From a virus, in the IMG/VR virus record IMGVR_UViG_3300025770_000087, positions 1 to 25,361 of that record: a stretch of 25,361 bases of DNA. One strand, written 5' to 3'. The position numbers were made by a program, and so were the translations under genes. Below the pieces are notes generated by a model that saw only the letters and a program-made list of their open reading frames with translations, did not search any database and had not been told where the DNA came from. Shown one piece after another: positions 1,792 to 19,803 of this stretch (position 1 is the first letter of the stretch; each line of letters begins with the position of its first letter).

Positions 1792-1994
1792 TTCCTATCC
1801 TTTTTTCTTTTTTTATATTTATGAAATGCTTTAATTATTTCTCTATATTTTCCTACCCCTTTTTGGTCGGGGTTTATTTTAATTTTACCTTGCTTTCTCT
1901 GTTTGGTAACATCTGCTGCCATTGTCAGGGGACTGTCGTGTTTGTCAAAGGTTTTTGACAGGGGACTTTCGGAAAATTGTTTAAAGGATTTCAT
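1788..1994 (-). CDS. Small basic protein with capsid-targeting-like N-terminus
   Basis: 68 residues starting MKSFKQFSESPLSKTF, one of the window's repeated MKSFKQ N-termini. The T4 internal protein signal MKTYQEFIAE has the same pattern: Met-Lys, aromatic, polar, aromatic, then a Glu where prohead protease cuts. The rest is Lys/Arg-rich (over 20 basic residues) and ends KKRKKDRK, suiting nucleic acid binding. Its ATG overlaps the stop of the 714-residue gene as TAATG, so translation is probably coupled. I recognise no domain. A packaged, DNA-binding internal head peptide is inferred. Confidence 0.7.
   Translation of the reverse strand: MKSFKQFSESPLSKTFDKHDSPLTMAADVTKQRKQGKIKINPDQKGVGKYREIIKAFHKYKKRKKDRK
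1816..1823 (-). promoter_or_regulatory. T4-like late promoter word CATAAATA
   Basis: On the minus strand this reads CATAAATA, one base from the T4 late -10 word TATAAATA. It lies 25 bases before the start of the secreted Arg-rich ORF and inside the end of the 68-residue gene. It could give the envelope pair its own late transcript. This rests on motif similarity only. Confidence 0.35.
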
Positions 1995-4138
1995 TACCTT
2001 GCGCGTCCGCGGGCACTTGGACCACTCAGAGGTCCTCTATTTAGTCTTCTTTGTGCTTTCCCAAAACCCTGTATTCTTTGTATTGTCTTGCCAGACTGTT
2101 GTTGTCCTCTGATGGACTGGTCATGGGCTTTCTTCATATAACTTTTCAAAGTTTTCTTGGTCAAACCTGTTTCATCGGATTCATTCAACCCAAGTGCTTT
2201 TGCCAGTGCTTTTGCCCAATGGTCAACACTTGCACTGATAATTTTATCGCTGATGTTACCGTAAGAGATGTTACTCTTATCTTTGATATTTGCTTTGGGG
2301 TACATGACATCAAGCATCATCTTACGAAGTTTGTTATCAATATTATCCGACATTACCATAATGAATCGAGTCTTACCACCCTTTGACTTAACAGTGAGTT
2401 TACCTTTTGTATATTTCTTTACTGCTTGTTTTAATTGCTTTGCAAATGCGGCGGTGTTGTCTTCATCCAGTTCAACGGATTCTTTGACAACTTTGATTTT
2501 ACCAAATCTTTTCATTTGATTGCTCACGATATCTGCACCAAGTGGAACTTCAATAACTCCAAGTTTTCCTCTTAGTTTCTTTTTCTGACTGTATGTATTT
2601 TTGATATATTGTCGTGCAATTTTTTCTGTGGGAAATGCTTTGATAAACATACCACTCCCAACGCCAGCAACAGCAAATTCGGTTTTACCTTCATCCAGTT
2701 CAACGGATTCTCTTAAAGTTTCCTTCTTCCAAGTATCAAGCAACTTCATAAACTTGTCGAATGGAAGTTCGCCACTCTTTGGTTTCCATGGCATATTCCT
2801 GTTGTTGTATCTCACCTTACCGTTTCCAATAAGGAAAGACCAATCACCTCTACCTCTACCTTGTTGATATTCAACACTGTTGGGGCTGGAAATCTTTAAT
2901 TCCTTGGATAGTTTTGCAGTAACATAATCACCAAATGAATCTGTCCATTTATCTTTGTGCTTTGCTACACTGTCGATGAATTTAATAATCTGCAATGCCT
3001 GTTTGTGCATTTTCGTATGCAGAGCGGTGTGTGCTTTAGTAAACCTCGCCATCTCTCTGTCACTTAGAACCTCATCCAGTTCAACGGATTCTTTTGCATA
3101 GAGAGGATTTCCCTTTGCATCTTTCCTTGCAACAAGTTTATGTTTCTTTGCAAAGTCCATTGCCTTTTGATGACTAACATGACTACCGTGGTATGCGAAC
3201 ATCTTGATGCGACCCTTCTTTGGGTCACTGATGGTTGCCATTAATACTTTGTCTTGGTTTGAACGCAATTCACCCCTATGTCCCAGAGGTCTTTGAATAA
3301 CAACAAACCTCGCAGTCTTATTGAGAGAGGATGGCACATTTATTAGAATCTTTGACTTAGGGTGTTGAATAATTTCTGTGGTTTTCTTATCCGCAGGGAT
3401 GTTCGTGTCCCCACCGAACCGTTCATTCAACTCTGATTCATCATATTCTGTTGATGCAGTTACTGGTATTCCTACCATCTTATTATATTTTTTAATTTTC
3501 TTCGTATTGTCTTTTTTGCGTTTTCTCTCACTTCTACTAAACTTATCCATCTTTAGTCTTCTAAGAATACTTGATTCATCAACTTCAACATGGTCTTGTA
3601 ACTTCTTCCACCTATCCGCAACATACGCATCCAAGTTGCCGTGGTCTTTGTAAGAACTCTTTTTCACAGGTTGTTTCACAGGTTGTTTCACAGGTTGTTT
3701 GACTTCAACGGATTCACTAACCTCTTGCTTTGGTGGAACAAAATATGACATCGTTCCATATCTGTCGTCTTTGACAATGATAGGTTGACCTGGATTTCGG
3801 TGTGCATATGAGCGAATCTCTTGATTGTCAATTTCTTCCATGTTTAATTTCTTGTTCCATCTTTCATATCGCATTCTTCCGTGCATACATTTTGCATAAT
3901 CATCACTGGATACAGTGAAAACTGGACAACCTGCAAAGGATTCATTCTTTTTCTTTCTTCTTGGTTTAATGGCAAGTCTATCTGCTTCCCTTCCAGCAAT
4001 TTGTGGTAAACCATCAAGGGGTTCAATAGATTGATGCAGTCCGGCAATACCAGTACCATTGCCACCACCTGTAGATGAATTCGCAGCCACTTCTTCTGTA
4101 AACTGTTTATATGTTTTTTTCATACTATTATGTATCAT
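1994..4138 (-). CDS. Modular protein with ESVELDE linkers, possible internal-head polyprotein
   Basis: 714 residues. After MIHNS comes MKKTYKQFTEE, resembling the T4 capsid-targeting sequence. The ATG at 4138 has GGGAAGGG upstream; the ATG at 4123 (Met6) has no visible ribosome binding site but matches the signal better. Domain-sized modules follow: about 25-138 (basic, ends in a SYFVPP motif), 160-245, 250-345, 357-470, 484-550, 560-650 and 655-714. ESVELDE recurs identically at 350-356, 477-483 and 553-559, with relatives ESVEVKQPV (142-150) and LNESDE (651-656). KQPV is repeated three times at 147-158. VELDE fits the (L/I)xE rule of T4 gp21-type protease. The last module (LTKKTLKSYMKKA) recurs in other marine phage proteins as I recall them. 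No enzyme motif is seen. Confidence 0.8.
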   Translation of the reverse strand: MIHNSMKKTYKQFTEEVAANSSTGGGNGTGIAGLHQSIEPLDGLPQIAGREADRLAIKPRRKKKNESFAGCPVFTVSSDDYAKCMHGRMRYERWNKKLNMEEIDNQEIRSYAHRNPGQPIIVKDDRYGTMSYFVPPKQEVSESVEVKQPVKQPVKQPVKKSSYKDHGNLDAYVADRWKKLQDHVEVDESSILRRLKMDKFSRSERKRKKDNTKKIKKYNKMVGIPVTASTEYDESELNERFGGDTNIPADKKTTEIIQHPKSKILINVPSSLNKTARFVVIQRPLGHRGELRSNQDKVLMATISDPKKGRIKMFAYHGSHVSHQKAMDFAKKHKLVARKDAKGNPLYAKESVELDEVLSDREMARFTKAHTALHTKMHKQALQIIKFIDSVAKHKDKWTDSFGDYVTAKLSKELKISSPNSVEYQQGRGRGDWSFLIGNGKVRYNNRNMPWKPKSGELPFDKFMKLLDTWKKETLRESVELDEGKTEFAVAGVGSGMFIKAFPTEKIARQYIKNTYSQKKKLRGKLGVIEVPLGADIVSNQMKRFGKIKVVKESVELDEDNTAAFAKQLKQAVKKYTKGKLTVKSKGGKTRFIMVMSDNIDNKLRKMMLDVMYPKANIKDKSNISYGNISDKIISASVDHWAKALAKALGLNESDETGLTKKTLKSYMKKAHDQSIRGQQQSGKTIQRIQGFGKAQRRLNRGPLSGPSARGRAR
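2463..2482 (-). repeat. ESVELDE linker repeat, copy 1
   Basis: The 20-base sequence TCATCCAGTTCAACGGATTC (plus strand) encodes ESVELDE in the 714-residue protein. It is identical at 2691-2710 and 3072-3091, although the flanking modules are unrelated. A fourth copy with two differences lies at 12833-12852 in the 1509-residue gene. Confidence 0.9.
2691..2710 (-). repeat. ESVELDE linker repeat, copy 2
   Basis: Identical over 20 bases to the copies at 2463 and 3072. It separates two modules of the 714-residue protein. Confidence 0.9.
3072..3091 (-). repeat. ESVELDE linker repeat, copy 3
   Basis: Identical over 20 bases to the copies at 2463 and 2691. It separates the third and fourth modules of the 714-residue protein. 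Confidence 0.9.
3663..3700 (-). repeat. 12-bp tandem repeat encoding KQPV
   Basis: Three units of TTCACAGGTTGT encode (KQPV)3 in the linker after the first module of the 714-residue protein. Such units expand by slippage; the encoded segment looks like a flexible spacer. Confidence 0.85.
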
Positions 4139-7253: not shown

Positions 7254-7630
7254 TACAAGTTCTCCAATTCTGTTTTTATTCTATTTTCTATAGGAATTTT
7301 TTCCAACGATGCTTCTGGAATTGAATGTGGTAAATATTGAAGGTATGAAAGAAATGATTTTAAATATGAATGAAACTTTTCTTCTATCCTGTAGAATAAT
7401 ATTCTACAACATGCTTCTGAACCAAATACATTATTAAGAACTATTAAATGGTTTAGAATTAGACGAGTTCTCAAATCTCCGCTTTTTTCATACTTTCCAA
7501 AAAGTCTTTTAATATACTTTATTTTATTCATGTCTTCGTAAAACTCATCCATACTTTCACACTGTGGATTTGTATACATTTTCATGGTATACATTGTGAA
7601 GTTATTCTTGTTTAAATTTTTAAAGTCCAT
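7253..7630 (-). CDS. Conserved small phage protein (DUF7207-like)
   Basis: 125 residues. The pattern NPQC..MDEFYEDMNKIKYIKRLF...LILNHLIVLNNVFG matches, from memory, a family of small proteins in cyanophages and other marine T4-like phages often labelled DUF7207. The fold is probably all-helical. No ribosome binding site is obvious before the ATG, and 22 bases separate it from the upstream gene. Its function is unknown. Its stop overlaps the start of the 146-residue gene. Confidence 0.75.
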   Translation of the reverse strand: MDFKNLNKNNFTMYTMKMYTNPQCESMDEFYEDMNKIKYIKRLFGKYEKSGDLRTRLILNHLIVLNNVFGSEACCRILFYRIEEKFHSYLKSFLSYLQYLPHSIPEASLEKIPIENRIKTELENL

Positions 7631-7652
7631 AATAAATAATTCAATTCAGATA

Positions 7653-8132
7653 TCAATCCTCCACGGAAGGAACAATTTTAGCATCAAGTAAGTACAGTCC
7701 GCCATCTTCTTGGTCTGCACTTACTCTAAGTGACAAACCAACACCGTTATTAAATTCTTTGATGTTATCACCTCTATAGAATCCAGTACTTAAATCGTGA
7801 GTTGGTGTTGTTCCGAATGAACCACCCCACCTTGCAAGAGGAAGATGTAATTCTTCGGCAGTTATTGTGGAGTTGTTATTCCATTCAAAGTCTAACCCTG
7901 TTGTGTTTAATTTATGGCGAATTTGAACCATTGCTGTCCTTGGACTGAGGAATTCTTTGTCTGTGAAAGAATTCAGGAATGAATTAAGCCTTCCTACTTG
8001 TTCTTCGTTTTCTACACGATGAATACCAAAGTCATCTCTCGCACTTCTGGCCGCACCACCATTTACGACTTCACCACCACCACTTTCTGTGATATTGTCC
8101 ATTTTTTCTTGTAATTCTTTATATGTTTTCAT
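7653..8132 (-). CDS. Putative internal head protein with MKTYKELQE N-terminus
   Basis: 159 residues beginning MKTYKELQEKMDNITESGGG. MKTY is identical to the start of the T4 IPII/IPIII capsid-targeting sequence, and LQE fits the prohead-protease rule. The rest (LNSFLNSF, then GLDFEW, GGSFGTTPTHDLS) matches a conserved protein that I recall in marine phages, with a beta-rich C-terminal part. GGAG lies seven bases before the ATG. The function is unknown. Packaging in the head and removal of the first 9-17 residues are inferred. Confidence 0.8.
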   Translation of the reverse strand: MKTYKELQEKMDNITESGGGEVVNGGAARSARDDFGIHRVENEEQVGRLNSFLNSFTDKEFLSPRTAMVQIRHKLNTTGLDFEWNNNSTITAEELHLPLARWGGSFGTTPTHDLSTGFYRGDNIKEFNNGVGLSLRVSADQEDGGLYLLDAKIVPSVED

Positions 8133-9063: not shown

Positions 9064-12000
9064 TTATAGTTCTTTTGAGAATTTATCATTTATGGTCATA
9101 TGTGGAGTATCTTTTAAATACTTTTTAAGTAATTCTTTTGTTCCCATATCACCTGCACCGTGTTCTTCGTTAGTCTTTTTTCTCCACTTATTGTTATCTC
9201 GTCCCCTGTTGAAACTTCTGTTCACCATTCTTAGATTTTTTGGTGAGTTGTTTAGTGGATTTCCGTCTTTATGGTCTAAATCCTTACCATCACCAACAGA
9301 TGCTCTACCAGAACGAATCAGTTTGTTTCGTGCATTTGTCCTTGCACTTCTTCGTTCTCGTTGTTCTGGTTTTGCACCATATTGCTTTAGATATGCGGTA
9401 CGATTTGCATCAGTAGCACTTGCAGATGCATCTCCCGCACCTGCACCTTCTTTAATTGGATGTGCATGAAGGTCTAACGGTTTTGGTGGGTCGCCCAATT
9501 CCCAACCTTTATCTCGTCCAAGAGTTTTATCAAACAAATCTTTAGTATGTTCTTTTCCTTGCTGTGGATATTTGGGAAGCATCATAATAACATCCTCATA
9601 AAATTGTGATTCGTGTATAAAGTTAGGACAATCTCCTTGTTCTATAAAGAAATTTAAAAGCATTGGCCAATCACTATTATCTTCTTCAATTTCTATATGT
9701 TCATATCCACTTGTCCACCTCATTACTTCATCAATCACCTGTCCACCGTTTCCAATTCTACTAAGAATTGTTTCTAGAACATAGAAATAATCAATGAATA
9801 ATTCTTCACCTTCTTTAATTTCTTTTAATGCATGTGCAGTAAAGTTTCCATTGTTTTCTATTAATGAAATATTTTCATTTATATGAGAATGATTTGTCCA
9901 TCTACAGAAATCTGTTCTTTGATATGAAGGAACATCTTCTAACAGATTGAGATAGTATAGTGAAATTTCTTCACCTGCTTTTATATCCTCTGTTGCAAAA
10001 GAACCTAAACCATGAACAGATGATTCTTTAAACTCATATGAATCGGTAACACTGTAAGTTTTACCACCTTGCTCTGCTGAAGTAATAGTGCCTGGTGCTA
10101 AACCTTGTAATTTTTCTGATGCTTTTGCTTGTTGTTGTAATTGTTTTTTCTTTGCTTTTTCGTCCCAACCTGATTGTTCAATAAATCCCTTCACAACCTT
10201 ATGACTTTTTTCTCTTTCAGACATCATTCGGAATTGCTCATTGAACAATGCATTTTCTTCTTCGGGACTGAGTGCAAGTCCTTCTTCTCTTTCTTCTTCT
10301 TCTCCTGTATTTTTCAACACTGAAACTTGGTGAGTTTTAAAACCCCTTTCACCATATACTTTAATTTGAGTGGTTTCTTCAGACTCTTGTTCTAGTCCAA
10401 TGTCAGACCAGTCTTCAATTTCAGAAGATTCCATATCTTCTATATCCCACCCCATATGGTCTATCAGTTTAAGTGGGTCACCCTTTACATTATTAAGTTC
10501 TTTAGAATTCCGTTCTGCAACTGCTTTACCTGCATCGACATCCTGTTTGAATAGTTGCATTGCTTCATTTTTGTCGATTTCTTCTAATATTAATCCTTGA
10601 TGGTGTGCAAAGGAATCTATAATAGAATCTGGTTCTTTAGTATGAACTTGTAAGGCAGCGTATCCTGCATAGTCGCCCAGTTTTAAATTAGAACCCATTT
10701 CCTTATCTGACCTTTTCATCAATTCCTCAACACTTATTCCTAAATCGTCTGCATATGCTTTTAATTTCTTTGATTTTTGTCCAGTTTTCCAAGAAAAAGC
10801 AGTATCAGATTTCTCCATAATTTTGTTTATTGTTGCCTTACCTTCGGCACTCCCTTTTCTAAGGTCGCTCATTGAAACATTAGTACCGTCTGCACTCATC
10901 GTCAACATATATTCTGCTACTTTAGATGTATTACAACCACAGTCACATCCTGTGTTACAACACCCACAGAATTTACAACATCCTGTGGCTGCTTCGGTAA
11001 ATAATATTTCTTTAAATTCTTTATTATTATTAAATACAGTATTGATTCTTTTTGCTAAATCTTTATGAAATTCATTACCTTCTTTTATTTTATTTACAAT
11101 ATCTGGATGGTATTTTGAAATGTCAGTACCTTCCCAATGCTCTGGTTGTGGTGGTTGTCCATAAACAGAAGACCACGAAACTCCATTCGCACCAGGTCCA
11201 GTAACATCCCACCACTTTGGTCCAGTATTTTCGTTACACCCTGCACAACGATATGTGCCACCTTCGGTAAACCATCCCAAAGGACCGACCCCGATTCCAG
11301 TGCTTAGATGTGTCCTCTCTCTATTCTTTAAGTCTTTAATTATTCCATCAACCAACTTATGTGTTTCTTTATCCATTCCCATTGTGCTTTCACAATTTAT
11401 TTTACCTCCACATTTTTCTTTTAACACCCCTCTTGCCATTTCAAACATTGCAACTGCTTCGCCTGGAGCAGAAGATATAAGTCTAGAAGGACCTGCTTTT
11501 ACAGACACACCATATCTTTTTTCTTTACCCTTACTGTCTGTACGAACTAGAATGATATCACTTTTGGAAGTTGGACCACTTCTACCCGCATGGCTTTTCC
11601 AGTACTTTGAAATTCCTTGTTTCTTTTCTCCAGGAATTTTCTTACCTGCATGGATGGCTTTCCATGTATATTCTTCGTTTTCATCACCCAGTTCACCTTT
11701 AGAATTTGCATCCATGAAGTCTTTTACTCCACCACGACCTTCAAAAACTCTTTTTGCCACAGAGCCTTCTTCAAGACCATACATCTCTGCTTTTGCTTGA
11801 CTCATTGTAATACTTGAATCTATTTTGCCTCTGTCTGTTGAAGATATGTCACCATCATATCCATTTCCAAAATGTAAATTGATGTGGTCTACAATTCCTG
11901 CTTCTACATCAACTGCATCAAAGTCTGTCGGATATGTTGCTTTTCCTTTTGGTTTTTTCTTCAACAACTTGTTGACTTGGTTTTGCATCTTTGCAGTGAG

Positions 12001-13593
12001 TTCTGCTTTGATTGCTTCTTTCGGTTCATTTTCAATTGCAGCGATTTCTCCATCTGTTTGCATTGTAGCAAGTTTGGTCTGTTTCTTTGCAAGTTTCTTT
12101 TCTTCTGGACTCAGTTCAGGTTCAGGTTTCCCTTCACCTTTTTTATGTTCACCACCCTGTACTGCTCTTGTGTCATCAACTGCTTTTTGTTCTTTTTGTT
12201 TCAAACCAATTGCAGTCGCACTATCTGTCCAATCAAAAGAATCAGGTTCATTTGCATATTTTTGTGCTACACCTTTGATTTGTTTTGCAGTACCTTCTTT
12301 TTCTACTGTGTGGTTCTTGGCAACTTTGTCTACCACTGCATGTTTTTTACCATTCTTTGTCTTTACAAGATAAAATACTGGCTCTTTCTTTCTTCTGTTT
12401 GCCTCGTCATTTGCTTTTACTCTTGCAACATTTTCTCTATCTTCTATCAAGACTTCGTTTTCAAAATTATAGTCAATACTTTCAACTGCTTTTGCTGGGT
12501 CATTTGTTGTCATTCTTGCTCTCACTTTTACTAGTCTTTCTTTTTCTGCTTTTTGCATTGCAGGCATCATTTTCCTGGCAATCGCGGCAATTCTTTTCTT
12601 CTTCTTCTTTATTTTTGCATCAATCTTTTCTCGTTGTAGGAATGGAACATCTTTCCACTTCATACCCTTGATTAACTTATCTCTCACTTTAGTAACAGCG
12701 GCTTTATTGGCTTTCTTTACTAAATCCTTTTTACCTTTTCTTCGTTTTTCTTTTAGTTTTCTTTTTCTTGCTCTTAACTTTGCAGTTCTTTTTGCAGACC
12801 TTGCCATCTTCCTTCTTGTTTGAACTGAAATCTCATCCAATTGAACGGATTCTTTCATATCTTTCATTAAGACCTTGACTGTCTTGAGGTCAATTCTCAT
12901 AATATTTGCAATCTGCTGGGCAGTTTTGCCTTCCTTAACAAGCATATGGAATTCGGACATCTTACTTTCAGCAAGATAGGATTCTGCAAACTCTACAAAC
13001 TCATCATAATCAAACCAAGTTTCTATAATTTTACCACGAACTCCCATACCCTTTCGTACTGCTTTGAATAGTTTTAATCTATCTGCTTCAGAAACATGAG
13101 AAGGTATACCCAATTTAAATGCATTGAAGTTTCCTTCAGCAGCCGCTGCCCTCATTTTAGATGCAGACATACCTTCAACACCTTCTGCATCTGGGTCCCT
13201 CTCTCCTGCGGATACAACATCGAAGTTTGCGATATTTTCATATCCTTTTTTTCCGATGTACTTCTTCATACCGTTTTTAAATTCTGAAACTCTATCTGCA
13301 CCCACCACCATAGTAATATCTGTGTATCCTTCTTTACTTAACTGTTGTAATACAGTAAAGGGGTTGCCAGATTTATTATTTACTATAACATTTGTATCTT
13401 TAAGCACTTTTTTCATAAATCTAGACTTATCTACCGAAGATAGTGGATTTCTTTTTGCATCTTGAGTATTACTTCCATATATTTTATAATCTGCACCCCT
13501 TCGTCTGGCTTCTTCTTTTACTTTGGTTGCAAGTAAAAGATGGCCGGTTGTGGGTGGATTAAATCTTCCGAAGGTAAAAACAATTTTTTTCAT
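9064..13593 (-). CDS. Giant multidomain protein: nucleotidyltransferase, nuclease-like, SET and HNH
   Basis: 1509 residues from the ATG at 13593, which has GGGAG six bases upstream. Residues 1-185 are a NadM/cytidylyltransferase-type domain with FGRFNPPTTGH (8-18) and GMSASKMR (141-148). ESVQLDE (248-254) then leads to a very basic helical region (255-360). A TKNGKKHAVVDK module lies at about 405-465. Residues 610-720 resemble a PD-(D/E)XK nuclease core (SKSD about 676-679, VSVK 696-699). CAGC and a nine-Cys cluster (872-887) are part of, or inserted after, it. A SET methyltransferase core spans about 1190-1272 (HGLGSF, RWTNHSHINEN, EGEELFIDYF). An HNH endonuclease spans about 1395-1473 (DLDHKDGNPLNNSPKNL). 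Whether it works whole or is cut at xLDE/LEE sites is open. Confidence 0.8.
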   Translation of the reverse strand: MKKIVFTFGRFNPPTTGHLLLATKVKEEARRRGADYKIYGSNTQDAKRNPLSSVDKSRFMKKVLKDTNVIVNNKSGNPFTVLQQLSKEGYTDITMVVGADRVSEFKNGMKKYIGKKGYENIANFDVVSAGERDPDAEGVEGMSASKMRAAAAEGNFNAFKLGIPSHVSEADRLKLFKAVRKGMGVRGKIIETWFDYDEFVEFAESYLAESKMSEFHMLVKEGKTAQQIANIMRIDLKTVKVLMKDMKESVQLDEISVQTRRKMARSAKRTAKLRARKRKLKEKRRKGKKDLVKKANKAAVTKVRDKLIKGMKWKDVPFLQREKIDAKIKKKKKRIAAIARKMMPAMQKAEKERLVKVRARMTTNDPAKAVESIDYNFENEVLIEDRENVARVKANDEANRRKKEPVFYLVKTKNGKKHAVVDKVAKNHTVEKEGTAKQIKGVAQKYANEPDSFDWTDSATAIGLKQKEQKAVDDTRAVQGGEHKKGEGKPEPELSPEEKKLAKKQTKLATMQTDGEIAAIENEPKEAIKAELTAKMQNQVNKLLKKKPKGKATYPTDFDAVDVEAGIVDHINLHFGNGYDGDISSTDRGKIDSSITMSQAKAEMYGLEEGSVAKRVFEGRGGVKDFMDANSKGELGDENEEYTWKAIHAGKKIPGEKKQGISKYWKSHAGRSGPTSKSDIILVRTDSKGKEKRYGVSVKAGPSRLISSAPGEAVAMFEMARGVLKEKCGGKINCESTMGMDKETHKLVDGIIKDLKNRERTHLSTGIGVGPLGWFTEGGTYRCAGCNENTGPKWWDVTGPGANGVSWSSVYGQPPQPEHWEGTDISKYHPDIVNKIKEGNEFHKDLAKRINTVFNNNKEFKEILFTEAATGCCKFCGCCNTGCDCGCNTSKVAEYMLTMSADGTNVSMSDLRKGSAEGKATINKIMEKSDTAFSWKTGQKSKKLKAYADDLGISVEELMKRSDKEMGSNLKLGDYAGYAALQVHTKEPDSIIDSFAHHQGLILEEIDKNEAMQLFKQDVDAGKAVAERNSKELNNVKGDPLKLIDHMGWDIEDMESSEIEDWSDIGLEQESEETTQIKVYGERGFKTHQVSVLKNTGEEEEREEGLALSPEEENALFNEQFRMMSEREKSHKVVKGFIEQSGWDEKAKKKQLQQQAKASEKLQGLAPGTITSAEQGGKTYSVTDSYEFKESSVHGLGSFATEDIKAGEEISLYYLNLLEDVPSYQRTDFCRWTNHSHINENISLIENNGNFTAHALKEIKEGEELFIDYFYVLETILSRIGNGGQVIDEVMRWTSGYEHIEIEEDNSDWPMLLNFFIEQGDCPNFIHESQFYEDVIMMLPKYPQQGKEHTKDLFDKTLGRDKGWELGDPPKPLDLHAHPIKEGAGAGDASASATDANRTAYLKQYGAKPEQRERRSARTNARNKLIRSGRASVGDGKDLDHKDGNPLNNSPKNLRMVNRSFNRGRDNNKWRKKTNEEHGAGDMGTKELLKKYLKDTPHMTINDKFSKEL
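12833..12852 (-). repeat. ESVQLDE linker repeat, diverged copy
   Basis: 18 of 20 bases match the repeat in the 714-residue gene. It encodes ESVQLDE between the nucleotidyltransferase part and the basic region of the 1509-residue protein. Confidence 0.8.
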
Positions 13594-13625
13594 ATTAGAC
13601 TCCCAATGCGTATTATATGTATAAA

Positions 13626-13664
13626 AAAACAAGAGAGCATATATAATGGATACTCTCTTGTTTT
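13626..13664 (-). terminator. Bidirectional intrinsic terminator
   Basis: A perfect 12-bp stem (AAAACAAGAGAG with CTCTCTTGTTTT) encloses a 15-base loop. On the minus strand a run of T follows the second arm, so it ends the leftward 16107-13757 operon just before the 1509-residue gene. Confidence 0.85.
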
Positions 13665-14227: not shown

Positions 14228-15430
14228 TTATCCTTTAATCCAATTTTTATCTGCTGTAAAATTGGCTTTACTGAATTCCAATCTATCCACGAACTTCACA
14301 GCATTACTGGTATATTTATCAATCGCCACATATCCTTCTGGTGCAGTTACCTTGAATCCAGTTGGAGTCTGGATAAATGTTCCTATGGATTTTACCGATT
14401 CTAATTTCCTCAAGAGTATAATCTTACCCTTTGCTATTACGGACCTTAAAGAGAAAAGAGAATCCAATTCTGTATTTTTTGAGTTAAGATATTTAACTAT
14501 ATCATTTCTTGCTGATTCTTTTTTCTTCTTGGCGCCCTCTGTTTTAAGACCATCAATCTGTCCTTGTATTTTGTCATTCACAAAACTTATGAACTCCTCT
14601 GTGGACAGACTGAGTGAACCCTCTCTAACTTTAGAATTTGCGTAAATATTTAAATTGTCTATCACCATTTTGTTATTTACAACATCATCCAAAAATGATT
14701 TAGATGATGACAATTTTACTTTTGCATCGGAGATTACACTTTCAATCGTGGTTGACTCTGAACTGGTAAGAGTTGCTGTGCCACTCACATCCTTGAAGTA
14801 TGCATCTTCCACCCACACCATTCTACTTTTCTTTAATGATTTTACATTAACACCAAACGATGCAGACATGCTTGATATATCTCTACCTGAGTATGAAGTA
14901 TGAAAAACTATACCCATCTTTGCACTTTTAATTCTTTTACCTTCATTTGAATCTACAGGAATTGCATATGTAATTGTATTGGGAGTGAAAACATAATGAC
15001 TTATACCATCTATAGATTTTGTTTTTACATCACTTGGACCAAACATCATATCTCCTTGAAGCACCCCTTTGATTGGCAGTTTCTTCAAATATTTTAATGC
15101 GGTTGTGAGTTTACCCACCACACCACCTTTATGATTTTTTCGTATATCTGATGGTGTGTAGTTTATCTTTGGCGTTTTATTGAACACACTTTTTGAACCA
15201 ACAAAGAATTTACCATTCTCTGGATTGATTCCACATATAATTGCAGGTGCGCCATCCCACTTCACTGTTGCATTTGTTTTTGACTTGGTGTTACCATTAA
15301 GCATTAATGCAATTTCTTCCAAGAATGAAATTGCTTCTGAGGCTCGTTCACTGCCCTCGAATACCAAATCCTCCACATGTATCATGTGGGTGTTCTTACC
15401 TTCTACCAGACAATCTGTGAATGTTTTCAT
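14228..15430 (-). CDS. Ligase-like nucleotidyltransferase (DUF6267-like) with cargo-type N-terminus
   Basis: 400 residues beginning MKTFTDCLVEGKNTH; LVE followed by Gly fits a prohead-protease site, and MKTF recalls the T4 capsid-targeting sequence. VKWDGAPAI (56-64) matches motif I (KxDG) of ATP-dependent ligases and capping enzymes, with Lys57 as the possible AMP-accepting residue. VLQGDMMF (123-130) could be motif III, PEGYVAI (364-370) motif IV, and KFVDRLEF (379-386) motif V. I recall this family from marine phages as DUF6267. Its ATG overlaps the exonuclease stop (ATGA). Polynucleotide joining or end activation is inferred from the motifs; the arrangement is unusual for a classical ligase. 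Confidence 0.65.
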   Translation of the reverse strand: MKTFTDCLVEGKNTHMIHVEDLVFEGSERASEAISFLEEIALMLNGNTKSKTNATVKWDGAPAIICGINPENGKFFVGSKSVFNKTPKINYTPSDIRKNHKGGVVGKLTTALKYLKKLPIKGVLQGDMMFGPSDVKTKSIDGISHYVFTPNTITYAIPVDSNEGKRIKSAKMGIVFHTSYSGRDISSMSASFGVNVKSLKKSRMVWVEDAYFKDVSGTATLTSSESTTIESVISDAKVKLSSSKSFLDDVVNNKMVIDNLNIYANSKVREGSLSLSTEEFISFVNDKIQGQIDGLKTEGAKKKKESARNDIVKYLNSKNTELDSLFSLRSVIAKGKIILLRKLESVKSIGTFIQTPTGFKVTAPEGYVAIDKYTSNAVKFVDRLEFSKANFTADKNWIKG

Positions 15431-17192: not shown

Positions 17193-17882
17193 TCAGACAG
17201 AAGGTCTTCCAAACTTCTTCCCAACAGGGTCAGATGAGATGCCAGTTTGCGTTGCTGAATCGTCGCGTCGTTGTTTAATTTGTTCCTTACCAAGTCCTAA
17301 TTTCTTTTGGTGTCCAAAAAATTCACGAAATGCTCTCATACCTGCTTCTTTTCGTGCGTCATATGAAGCATGAACTGGAACTGGTTTTTGAACTGGTTTT
17401 TTCGTCTTATCTTTACCACCCAATGCATTGCCAATCGCACCACCTGCAACACCACCTATGATACCACCTGCAACAGTTCCAACAGGACCTAAAGCACTAC
17501 CCAAAGCACCACCTGCAAGACTACCTGCAACACCACCTGCAATTTCACCCTTAACGCCTTCAGTTTCTAATTCTGCTTTTGGTTTTAATTTGTTGCCAAC
17601 TTTCTTGACGCCCTTCTTGGCCACCTCGACGCCCTTCTTGGCCACGCCTGTGGCAACATCTGTGGCAACATCTGTGGCAACACCACGAACAACTTCTTTC
17701 CCGGTTGCTTTCAATGCAGGTCCAGCCACGGCTTTCAATGTTGAAAAAGCGGGCGCAACCAACTCATCAACTTGTTGAACTTGTTTCATAGGGTTGAAAT
17801 GAGAACTTCTAAAGTCCTGCATTGGTTTGTTATCGTTTTGAGCAGTTTGAGCCCAATTTATAAAATCGTTTTTGTTAAACAT
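17193..17882 (-). CDS. Glycine-zipper protein with Ala/Val repeat
   Basis: 229 residues from the ATG at 17882, which has AAAGGAA just upstream; an earlier non-ATG start inside the preceding gene is unlikely. The N-terminus MFNKNDFINWAQ is amphipathic. QQVDE (36-40) and ETEG (106-109) are possible prohead-protease sites. Residues 64-96 carry VATDVATDVATG and two KKGVxVAKKG units, from 12-bp and 18-bp DNA repeats. Residues 114-156 form a long glycine zipper (GALGSALGPVGTVAGG, GGVAGGAIGNALGG), a class known for membrane insertion and helix packing. The tail is basic. A shared 49-base block links it to the gene at 19402. A packaged, membrane-entering peptide is inferred. Confidence 0.75.
   Translation of the reverse strand: MFNKNDFINWAQTAQNDNKPMQDFRSSHFNPMKQVQQVDELVAPAFSTLKAVAGPALKATGKEVVRGVATDVATDVATGVAKKGVEVAKKGVKKVGNKLKPKAELETEGVKGEIAGGVAGSLAGGALGSALGPVGTVAGGIIGGVAGGAIGNALGGKDKTKKPVQKPVPVHASYDARKEAGMRAFREFFGHQKKLGLGKEQIKQRRDDSATQTGISSDPVGKKFGRPSV
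17465..17513 (-). repeat. 49-bp glycine-zipper repeat, copy 1
   Basis: This block is identical, base for base, to 19458-19506, encoding GALGSALGPVGTVAG in two different proteins. Such identity, without silent changes, points to recent duplication or gene conversion. Confidence 0.9.
17607..17645 (-). repeat. Tandem 18-bp repeat, 21-bp period
   Basis: GACGCCCTTCTTGGCCAC occurs at 17607-17624 and 17628-17645, encoding KKGV-AKKGV units. A GTGGCAACATCT repeat (period 12, about three units) lies immediately beyond, to about 17683, encoding the VATD units. Confidence 0.85.
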
Positions 17883-17892
17883 ATGAATTCCT

Positions 17893-18603
17893 TTACTTGT
17901 CGTCCCAAGTTTTCTTTTTCTTTCCAATCCCAGTTACTGCGGCGCCTGCATCACCGAGTGCATATCCCAAAAGACCCCCAACAACCATACCAGCAGGACC
18001 TCCAAGACTACCCAATGCCGCACCTGCGGCAGCACCTTTCGCACCTTCTCTGACAGAAATACCAATTCTACTAACACCTTCTGCAACTCCACTGCCTGGA
18101 TTGTCCTTCTGGTACTGTTCTAAATCTTTTTTATCAATGGTCTTAACTTTACCTTTTGAGTCATGTACCAACACTTCTGTCTTTTTGTCTTTTAGTTGTC
18201 TTGGAGGAGTTGCAACTTCAGGGGCTTCATCTAAAGATGCACCATCGTGTTCAACATGGTCATAAGTATCCCAAGGTCCAGATTTCTTTTCATCTTTAGG
18301 TTTCTTTGGATTAGAACCGGCACTTTCTCGTTCTCTTTGCGCTTTTATTTTTTTTGCTTTATGCTCTCTATCCACCTGCATTTGCTTAAATGCGGATTCG
18401 TCTACCTTATCAGTCCACCCACCAAATGCTTTACCACTCGAAAGATGTTCTGTTGCTTTTGCGACTATATCATTAAGTTCTTTATTGTTATCTTCCATTG
18501 GTACACCTTTTTGTTTTTTTCTATCGAATGGTCGTGGACCTGGGAGTCCACTCAGAGGTTCTTCTAGATTACCTTGCTGTTCTTGCATATAGTATGTATA
18601 CAT
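17893..18603 (-). CDS. Glycine-zipper protein with charged N-terminal region
   Basis: 236 residues; GGAG lies seven bases before the ATG. The first 170 residues are highly charged and probably extended. GASLDEAPEV (121-130) contains an LDE site followed by Ala, fitting a prohead-protease cut. GVAEGVSRIG (172-181) precedes the hydrophobic glycine zipper at about 187-222 (GAAAGAALGSLGGPAGMVVG, then GLLGYALGDAGAA). The tail is KKKKTWDDK. Its layout, with a charged leader, possible cut, glycine zipper and Lys-rich end, parallels the 229- and 133-residue proteins. Its stop lies ten bases before the next start. Confidence 0.75.
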   Translation of the reverse strand: MYTYYMQEQQGNLEEPLSGLPGPRPFDRKKQKGVPMEDNNKELNDIVAKATEHLSSGKAFGGWTDKVDESAFKQMQVDREHKAKKIKAQRERESAGSNPKKPKDEKKSGPWDTYDHVEHDGASLDEAPEVATPPRQLKDKKTEVLVHDSKGKVKTIDKKDLEQYQKDNPGSGVAEGVSRIGISVREGAKGAAAGAALGSLGGPAGMVVGGLLGYALGDAGAAVTGIGKKKKTWDDK

Positions 18604-18668
18604 TTAGGAACTCCATGCATCTTAACTAATGCGGTTATATATATAATATAACAAGGAGATTTCATCAT
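18604..18668. promoter_or_regulatory. Divergent AT-rich promoter region
   Basis: TATATATAATA at 18638-18648 lies in a nearly palindromic AT run (18635-18651) between divergent genes. The same 11-mer occurs at 20176-20186 in another divergent gap of similar length. AAGGAG at 18653-18658 serves the rightward gene. Confidence 0.5.
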
Positions 18669-18935
18669 ATGGCTTTACCACAATATAATTCTATGCAAGA
18701 ACTGAACACTGGAAACGGTGGAAATAATACTGGACGATGGAAAGGTTTCATGCAATCAAATGGTGCAGGTGCAACTGCCAGTATTAGTATTACTACATTT
18801 AATGGTGAAGGTTTAACCTTTGATAATGTTAAAGCAGATACGGTGTATCCAATTGCCTTTAGGTCTACCTATGCAGTAGGATGTACCGCTGCAAATGGAG
18901 CAACTAATCCAATTACATTTTATGGTATGAATTAA
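18669..18935 (+). CDS. Small beta-rich hypothetical protein
   Basis: 88 residues. The sequence is rich in Gly, Asn, Ala and Thr, and alternates like a small beta-sandwich (SISITTFNGEGLTF, TVYPIAFRSTYAVG). MALPQYNSMQELNTGNGG opens it. There is no signal peptide. Its own promoter-like element and ribosome binding site sit upstream. It is the lone rightward gene in a leftward stretch and its stop overlaps that of the convergent 64-residue gene by four bases. A minor virion or decoration protein is possible, but I do not recognise a family. Confidence 0.65.
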   Translation: MALPQYNSMQELNTGNGGNNTGRWKGFMQSNGAGATASISITTFNGEGLTFDNVKADTVYPIAFRSTYAVGCTAANGATNPITFYGMN

Positions 18936-19126
18936 AAACCCTTCGCACCACTTACCCAATTAATATATTGTTCGGTTGCTTCTGGATTTGATTCAAAAGA
19001 ATCCCATCCAGAATTTTGTGATTCATTAAGTTTATTCCACCTTCGGGTGGACTTTGATTCTTCTGCCACAATATCTTCATATCGTTCTCGGTCTACTGAT
19101 TCTAAATATTGCTTAAATGATTTCAT
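18932..19126 (-). CDS. Small MKSFKQYLES protein
   Basis: 64 residues starting MKSFKQYLESVDRERYEDIV, a capsid-targeting-like N-terminus. The remainder is charged and Trp/Ser/Asn-rich (WNKLNESQNSGWDSF) with no recognised domain. The ATG overlaps the stop of the preceding small gene (ATGA). Removing the first 9-20 residues would leave a peptide of about 45-55 residues. An internal head peptide is inferred. Confidence 0.7.
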   Translation of the reverse strand: MKSFKQYLESVDRERYEDIVAEESKSTRRWNKLNESQNSGWDSFESNPEATEQYINWVSGAKGF

Positions 19127-19332
19127 TGTGCTTTAGCAAGGTGTTCTGGCTTTCTGCCGTCTTTACCCACTCTCCACTTTCTTTGTTGTGCATCATATTT
19201 TGCTTTCGGAAATGGTGGCCACTTCTCGTTATCTTTCATCGAGGCATTATAGGTTGCACTAAATGATTGGTCTTCAAAGTCTACAGCCGGTTCTACTGCT
19301 TCTATATTTAAATATTGCTTGAATGACTTCAT
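19123..19332 (-). CDS. Small MKSFKQYLNIE protein, possibly leaderless
   Basis: 69 residues from the ATG at 19332; an upstream GTG would lie inside a terminator stem. The protein starts MKSFKQYLNIEAVEPAVDFE, where NIE followed by Ala is a good prohead-protease site. The C-terminal half (WPPFPKAKYDAQQRKWRVGK) is basic and aromatic. There is no ribosome binding site; instead TATAAATA ends seven bases before the ATG. Confidence 0.7.
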   Translation of the reverse strand: MKSFKQYLNIEAVEPAVDFEDQSFSATYNASMKDNEKWPPFPKAKYDAQQRKWRVGKDGRKPEHLAKAQ

Positions 19333-19339
19333 GTAAATA

Positions 19340-19347
19340 TATTTATA
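19340..19347 (-). promoter_or_regulatory. T4-like late promoter TATAAATA next to a start codon
   Basis: On the minus strand this is an exact T4 late -10 word, directly after a terminator and seven bases before the ATG at 19332. If used with T4 spacing, transcription would begin one or two bases before the ATG. Confidence 0.45.
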
Positions 19348-19352
19348 TAAAA

Positions 19353-19377
19353 AAACAACCACACTAGGTGGTTGTTT
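19353..19377 (-). terminator. Bidirectional intrinsic terminator
   Basis: A perfect 10-bp stem (AAACAACCAC with GTGGTTGTTT) encloses a 5-base loop, with T-runs on both sides. It ends the leftward 133-residue gene and separates it from the MKSFKQY pair. Confidence 0.85.
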
Positions 19378-19401
19378 CTTTTTACTGTTTTATTGTTATA
19401 C

Positions 19402-19803
19402 TTATGCAGGTTGTTTCTTTTTGTTCCCTGCTTGTTGTATTTTGTGTCCTAGATATGCACCTGCAACAGTTCCAACAGGACCTAAAGCACTACCCAAAGC
19501 ACCACCCGCAACACCACCCATAACACCTTCAGTAACACCGAAGTATTCATTTACAGCAAGACATGTTGCATTCAGTTCCATGATTGCATTTGTAATGTCA
19601 TCGTCATCTGTGTCTTCGTTCAGTTCACCACCAAAATATGATTCAAGAAAAGAAACTACTAATGCTTCTTCAAGTTCTTGTGTGTCTATTTCTGTTGATT
19701 CTTCAACTTCAACTTCTTCCTTGCCTTCGTAAAGGCTTCGTTGATTGCTGTTGAGTACATTGTGAATGCTTGCTAAATGTCGTCTAAATTCGTTTGTGTT
19801 CAT
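19402..19803 (-). CDS. Glycine-zipper protein with acidic leader
   Basis: 133 residues with AGGAG seven bases before the ATG. The start MNTNEFRRHLASIHNVL is an amphipathic helix. Then come an acidic stretch (about 27-72), SLYEG (23-27), and VTEG (90-93) immediately before GVMGGVAGG. Residues 93-119 are a glycine zipper sharing 49 identical bases with the 229-residue gene. The end is basic (KKKQPA). Cutting after VTE would release a peptide of about 41 residues with a hydrophobic zipper and basic tail. Family recognition is limited to that shared module; delivery into a host membrane is inferred. Confidence 0.75.
   Translation of the reverse strand: MNTNEFRRHLASIHNVLNSNQRSLYEGKEEVEVEESTEIDTQELEEALVVSFLESYFGGELNEDTDDDDITNAIMELNATCLAVNEYFGVTEGVMGGVAGGALGSALGPVGTVAGAYLGHKIQQAGNKKKQPA
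19458..19506 (-). repeat. 49-bp glycine-zipper repeat, copy 2
   Basis: Identical to 17465-17513. The flanks diverge at once outside the zipper-coding region. Confidence 0.9.

Follow-up and report, generated by a model that had tools for sequence, protein, structure and literature searches.

Glycine-rich tails of three proteins in a marine T4-like phage fragment appear to be exchanged at predicted head-protease sites

The viral record IMGVR_UViG_3300025770_000087 of IMG/VR, analysed here as one window of 25,361 nucleotides (positions 1 to 25,361), raises the question of what three glycine-zipper proteins encoded close to one another might do. Their open reading frames (ORFs) of 229, 236 and 133 residues lie where an original prediction, made from the DNA letters alone, had placed them; they are called here gene A (17193..17882), gene B (17893..18603, directly upstream of A) and gene C (19402..19803). 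All window features given below are on the minus strand. That prediction viewed the three as head-packaged proteins from which short, membrane-seeking peptides would be cut. Comparison with related loci suggests that they belong with the T4-type internal head proteins and exchange cassettes in an unusual manner, glycine-rich tails appearing to have been swapped between genes at the expected cut points of the head protease. The fuller reading, in which A, B and C are prohead-core carriers whose exchangeable tails would be freed by gp21-type cleavage and ejected to aid inner-membrane passage, is assigned a probability of about 0.45.

Gene A encodes a leader helix, an [LIV]xE site, an amphipathic segment, the glycine zipper and a long basic tail. 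The zipper covers residues 112-156 (17415..17549), as indicated by a profile search and by shuffling of the GxxxG pattern. In B, the ORF translation and the same kind of shuffling place it at residues 187-217 (17953..18045), followed by GKKKKTWDDK, and in C, the zipper and a closing NKKKQPA form a 41-residue tail cassette (19405..19527), delimited by translation and by comparison with L004, the related locus closest to the window. The lysine-rich tail expected in each protein is terminal in C and nearly so in B, unlike in A, where about 70 residues are still to come after the zipper. GxxxG runs number six in A, five in B and four in C, and are matched by 0.06%, 0.4% and 1.3% of whole-protein shuffles, respectively. 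Shuffles restricted to the glycine-rich segment match them in 2.7%, 2.4% and 10% of cases, so the run of C is weak on its own; in other words, the proposal of a zipper in all three proteins holds against whole-protein composition, with C being unexceptional within its glycine-rich segment. The Pfam models Gly-zipper_Omp (PF13488) and Rick_17kDa_Anti (PF05433) have the same GxxxG periodicity, yet on A and C their scores stay below the curated cut-offs (20.6 vs 25 bits and 16.2 vs 24.2, respectively), and neither model matched B.

The zippers of A and C contain a block of 49 nt, located at 17465..17513 and 19458..19506, which is exactly identical, as had been claimed, and is read in the same frame in both genes (GGALGSALGPVGTVAG). 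Similarity around this block reaches 91% over 70 nt, and the longest common stretch in the A/B and B/C pairs is at most 10 nt. The chance that the same peptide would be written with identical codons at 16 positions is about 10^-7 (log10 of -7.3 with the codon usage of the window and -6.8 with that of A, B and C). Because such identity is so improbable, the two zippers are considered to share recent DNA ancestry, not just composition. Judged from its sequence, the block is a recent copy between A and C.

The borders of the exchanged tails appear to fall at candidate protease sites. The leader of A (residues 1-40; 17763..17882) ends with V-D-E, and between A and its L004 orthologue identity is 75% ahead of VDE (LDE in L004) and 16% beyond it. 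The candidate site of C is V-T-E at residues 90-92 (19528..19536); local similarity to the L004 orthologue runs precisely up to the E of GVTE/QIDE and no further. The V-A-E of B (residues 173-175; 18079..18087) corresponds to I-A-E at the same position in L004, with 62% identity ahead of the site and, beyond it, 45% across the 33 zipper residues that align, a less sharp drop than in A and C. The zipper of A also resembles that of L004 B (GGALGSALGPVGTVAGG vs GGAIGSLVPGVGTAIGS), so that one cassette type is found on different carriers. Short peptides had been predicted to follow VTE and ETE. Of the three proteins, C alone would give a short peptide, of 41 residues after VTE; ETE in A would give about 120 and, with Glu at P3, is off the L/I-X-E consensus. 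VDE (residues 38-40), which precedes a different amphipathic segment, is the more probable site in A.

The association of tails with such sites extends to the relatives. A sample of 21 carriers and the virion protein gp111 of phage S-CREM2 contains 53 Gly/Ala-rich acid-free segments, of which 25 have [LIV]xE immediately before them, whereas the acidic residues of each protein would lead one to expect 6.2 (11.7%) (Poisson-binomial p ~5e-11, which is optimistic because the sequences are related, and with the acid-free definition picked after the sequences were inspected). This enrichment is confined to A/B/C carriers with acid-free runs: an earlier, broader test on hydrophobic segments of all locus ORFs gave 18 of 91, against 16%, with no clear enrichment, and across the window the [LIV]xE count is only mildly raised (125 vs 102, standard deviation 9). 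The T4 protease gp21 cleaves after L/I-X-E (PMC9026906), and the gp23 proteins of the relatives have ITE, LFE or LTE where T4 gp23 is cleaved (at LTE).

Among these relatives, whose orthologues were identified through leader similarity and synteny, it is the leaders that are conserved, not the tails. Strict zippers are limited to the three of the window and the L004 B tail; other loci hold Ala/Gly amphipathic segments in that slot, for example LDE-IAPLLLGIGSAAARLAPW, IDE-IAPLVAGVARKAAGGLV and VDE-GIIGTALKGAAVGAAGYGAYKG. The zipper is therefore one version of a cassette. The strict-zipper trio, which was to be sought in related phages, proved specific to this contig, and across viral contigs only two stretches match the zipper peptide pattern. 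Orthologues of A occur at 11 further loci, with part of the assignments relying more on position than on sequence, and those of B and of C at several each. Two further candidates for relatives of C, L084 and L085, were rejected, as they come from unrelated phages and resemble C only in a stretch rich in Gly. The syntenic order is C ... B, A, a nuclease-like gene, an exonuclease, DUF6267 and a cytidylyltransferase.

The contig derives from a marine myovirus of the T4-like (Kyanoviridae-type) group. Proteins of pelagiphage HTVC008M, methylophage Melnitz and cyanophages share 37-45% identity with its DUF6267 protein, and these phages are T4-like Kyanoviridae wherever taxonomy was displayed. No near DNA match to the contig was found among GenBank phage records, and tblastn against them gave no match for A or C. 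The presence of a protease gene is supported by G001 (157 kb) and G004 (126 kb), longer relatives that both encode Peptidase_S77, the T4-type prohead protease, as well as a gp23 with ITE or LFE in place of the LTE at which T4 gp23 is cut. No T4-type late promoter motif (TATAAATA) was seen directly upstream of A, B or C, which decides nothing.

Entry into the head would depend on N-terminal leaders. In T4, the propeptides of internal proteins (IPs) function as capsid targeting sequences (CTSs), in which residues 4 and 7 are important, and the first 10 residues suffice for packaging (PMC9026906). T4 IPII and IPIII start with MKTYQEFIAE-A, and similar leaders begin a small window protein at 19123..19332 (MKSFKQYLNIE) and another at 18932..19126 (MKSFKQYLE), with further window genes starting with MKSFKQYLE, MKSFKQFSE, MKTYKELQE or similar. 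A link between CTS-like leaders and virions is supported by S-CREM2, whose published virion proteome comprises 52 virion proteins among 219 ORFs (PMC10665884). The motif [FYL]xxF[LIMV]xE occurs within the first 30 residues of 7 of the 219 ORFs, and 6 of these 7 are in virions (p=0.0008, after sharpening of a looser first motif that gave 5/7, p=0.009; a broader version gives 6/9, p=0.006). Five of the six are non-structural, namely a cytidylyltransferase, an S-adenosylmethionine hydrolase, a kinase-like protein, a Cas9-like protein and the small gp13, with leaders such as MKNFSSFLTE-A and MKRFDAFLTE-E; the sixth, a baseplate protein, is probably coincidental. Virions of S-SM1 have likewise been reported to contain a cytidylyltransferase (PMC3037559), and S-SCSM1 virions an NMNAT-like protein (PMC9602691), with the S-CREM2 and S-SCSM1 authors cautioning that such proteins may be carried over from the lysate (PMC10665884, PMC9602691). 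The leader-virion link could serve as a simple predictor of unknown proteins injected by marine T4-like phages.

By analogy, the nearest experimental counterpart of A and B is S-CREM2 gp111, detected in virions with 8 peptides. It has, in common with A and B and with other packaged cyanophage proteins, a charged leader, a Glu site and a C-terminal Ala/Gly amphipathic tail (MVEAAMAALAPLLGKVAGAAKGAKLGAVAKG and further residues). Proteins of the gp111 type differ from A and B in having no strict GxxxG zipper, and no sequence homology has been established. T4 IPI, IPII, IPIII and Alt also combine an N-terminal leader with a site having Glu at P1 and an aliphatic P3. The leaders of A, B and C differ from these in being longer and atypical, and the three proteins also have extra sites deeper in the protein, GxxxG or amphipathic tails and Val at P3. 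Taken with the [LIV]-x-E junctions, the Peptidase_S77 of the relatives and the S-CREM2 leaders, packaging and protease cleavage of A, B and C are likely and provide the best reading of these genes, with the ETE detail of the original prediction being abandoned.

The preferred mechanism would proceed as follows. The leaders would bring A, B and C into the prohead, where a gp21-type protease would cut after [LIV]-x-E and free the basic Gly/Ala-rich tail; in C, this cut would remove an acidic helical domain along with the leader. The tail would remain in the head alongside the DNA, with which it would then be ejected. It would represent an exchangeable cassette, mostly a glycine zipper here and an amphipathic Ala/Gly helix in the relatives, and recombination at the site may recently have copied one zipper between A and C. 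The ejected tails would most likely insert into or cross the host inner membrane, helping DNA or co-packaged enzymes to enter.

The closest functional precedent for such a membrane role, again by analogy, is the type VI secretion system (T6SS) effector Tde1, in which GxxxG repeats make the inner membrane permeable and are required for entry (PMC10240207). GxxxG repeats, delivery by a contractile machine and passage through the target inner membrane as the proposed task are the points of likeness (PMC10240207). The differences are that the zipper of Tde1 is N-terminal rather than C-terminal, that it carries a DNase, that it is loaded onto VgrG by a chaperone and that no protease releases it (PMC10240207). 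As a T6SS effector already needs a glycine zipper to cross the target inner membrane, the use of this motif is not wholly new, contrary to what had been suggested; glycine zippers have also been noted in phage tape-measure proteins (PMC10240207). An identification of A, B and C as tape-measure proteins was rejected, as the PHROG matches are limited to the Gly/Ala-rich part of short proteins.

Several observations weigh against the packaging and membrane mechanism. The leaders of A and C are CTS-like only in an aromatic-xx-aromatic/His core; this aromatic-xx-Trp/His core falls in the predicted helix, and the leaders of neighbouring genes match a CTS much better. Gene B has no CTS, and certain C orthologues are without such a tail. 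The virion data come from S-CREM2 as an analogue, not from this phage, and neither Peptidase_S77 nor gp23 is encoded on the 25-kb fragment. The window sites VDE, VAE and VTE have Val at P3, neither L nor I, so that VTE of C and VAE of B match the T4 rule only if Val is allowed there; the MVE of gp111 is also off the strict consensus. The highest 19-residue hydropathy means are 1.42, 1.36 and 1.25, all lower than the 1.6 usually expected of a transmembrane helix. Finally, AlphaFold2 gives the zippers no confident structure, its fair confidence being limited to the leader helices and the acidic hairpin of C. The zippers are accordingly not predicted to lie inside a soluble core, an outcome that would have spoken against membrane activity, although low AlphaFold2 confidence proves nothing.

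Packaging and cleavage are also compatible with a task for the tails inside the cell that makes the virus; they might, for example, tie the nascent core together or anchor it to the inner membrane, the place where T4-type proheads start, and later persist as leftovers like the fragments of T4 gp67 and gp68. In T4, gp21 fragments the core proteins, and prohead formation takes place on the membrane (PMC9026906; PMC9958956), and the acidic helical domain of C is reminiscent of the acidic gp67. Swapped, variable tails on constant leaders are, however, the reverse of a core-building interface, and the basic part of A and B, which a T4 internal protein would retain, is the tail itself, which leaves this explanation rather unlikely. 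It is improbable that the tails simply condense or protect DNA inside the head, as T4 IPs do, with no membrane activity. They are acid-free and rich in Lys and Arg, and IPI shields T4 DNA from the GmrSD nuclease (PMC9958956), but DNA binding needs neither repeated GxxxG runs nor long uncharged stretches.

The 12-nt tandem repeats inside the zippers of both A and C, the predicted disorder of most of A and the different cassettes of close relatives would all fit fast-evolving Gly/Ala linkers of little specific function, with zippers born from repeat slippage and an accidental 49-nt copy. An [LIV]xE junction far above expectation and the persistence of tail type, charge and position among relatives make this quite improbable. 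Very little weight is given to unpackaged membrane proteins made during infection, of the holin, antiholin or superinfection-exclusion type. Membrane proteins with glycine zippers are common (general knowledge; PMC10240207) and A, B and C are small, yet they have no signal, no strong transmembrane segment, long charged N-terminal regions and no holin family match, and their cluster holds CTS-led and virion-type genes.

Little is understood of how contractile-tailed phages move DNA and proteins across the inner membrane. Should the tails indeed be head-packaged and membrane-active, abundant ocean phages would carry a modular kit parallel to T6SS effectors. A tentative generalisation, itself doubtful, is that marine T4-like phages use a changeable set of membrane-active, head-loaded peptides, carried by shared leaders, freed by the protease and swapped at its sites, to take DNA and co-packaged enzymes through the host inner membrane.

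Further details concern the individual proteins. The leader helix of A is predicted at residues 4-16, and the first block has a predicted local distance difference test score of about 85. The start of B that is conserved in relatives is MQEQQG, 5 codons downstream of the ORF start, at 18588. In C, the leader helix is followed by an acidic helical hairpin at residues 41-87 (19543..19683; 'YFGGELNEDTDDDDI') ahead of the VTE site, the zipper and the Lys tail; a Foldseek search with the C model returned nothing meaningful. Many small proteins of these phages carry the hairpin motif, YFG(G/D)xLNE(S/D)TSxxDI, at times twice per protein (window 19543-19683, L014 1-1034, L034 4414-5071 and L086).

Other proteins show related traits. 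ESVELDE/ESVQLDE linkers are repeated inside long window proteins (1994-4138 and 9064-13632), occurring four times in the window proteome but never in shuffles, as if these were polyproteins cut by the prohead protease. An internal-type protein (L018 19227-19610 and window 1994-4123) copies the mature N-terminal arm of gp23, with 'LTE-TIANSMGGGFAVNQAAETGNPNLAGYDPVMGF' in L018 vs 'ITE-QPTNNMGGGFSVSAAASATGNLAGYDPILISL' in the gp23 of its own phage; S-CREM2 gp160, present in virions, does likewise. L018 also encodes a SET-like protein (7340-7768) with the CTS-like leader MMRSFVNFLRE.

The DUF6267 protein (14228..15430; PF19782, 383 bits) starts with the CTS-like leader MKTFTDCLVEG and contains a KWDG motif resembling that of ATP-dependent ligases. 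Upstream of DUF6267, HTVC008M (L107 10953-12011) and Melnitz (L108 10884-11969) encode a protein with a basic amphipathic C-terminal tail behind a Glu motif (LLHE-GVLDKLKDIYGKVKDFIVNLFKKIM and ILTE-IRLFKNLTAKVKGFFNKVWKKATNFF). The same cluster includes a 1508-residue multidomain protein with cytidylyltransferase, SET and HNH domains (9064..13590), whose cyanophage cytidylyltransferase homologues occur in virions. A CTS on the cytidylyltransferase of all these phages was considered and rejected, as the window and its close relatives start with MKKIVFTFGRF. Since phrog_455 matches both the DUF6267 protein and the cytidylyltransferase, fused forms may exist. Elsewhere in the window, a lipoprotein-like gene (816-1721; MKNIMITAIMFASLISTTGC) overlaps, in another frame, an ORF with a signal-like start (1258-1791; MKTLMILIISLICVSAYA), an arrangement like that of nested spanin genes.

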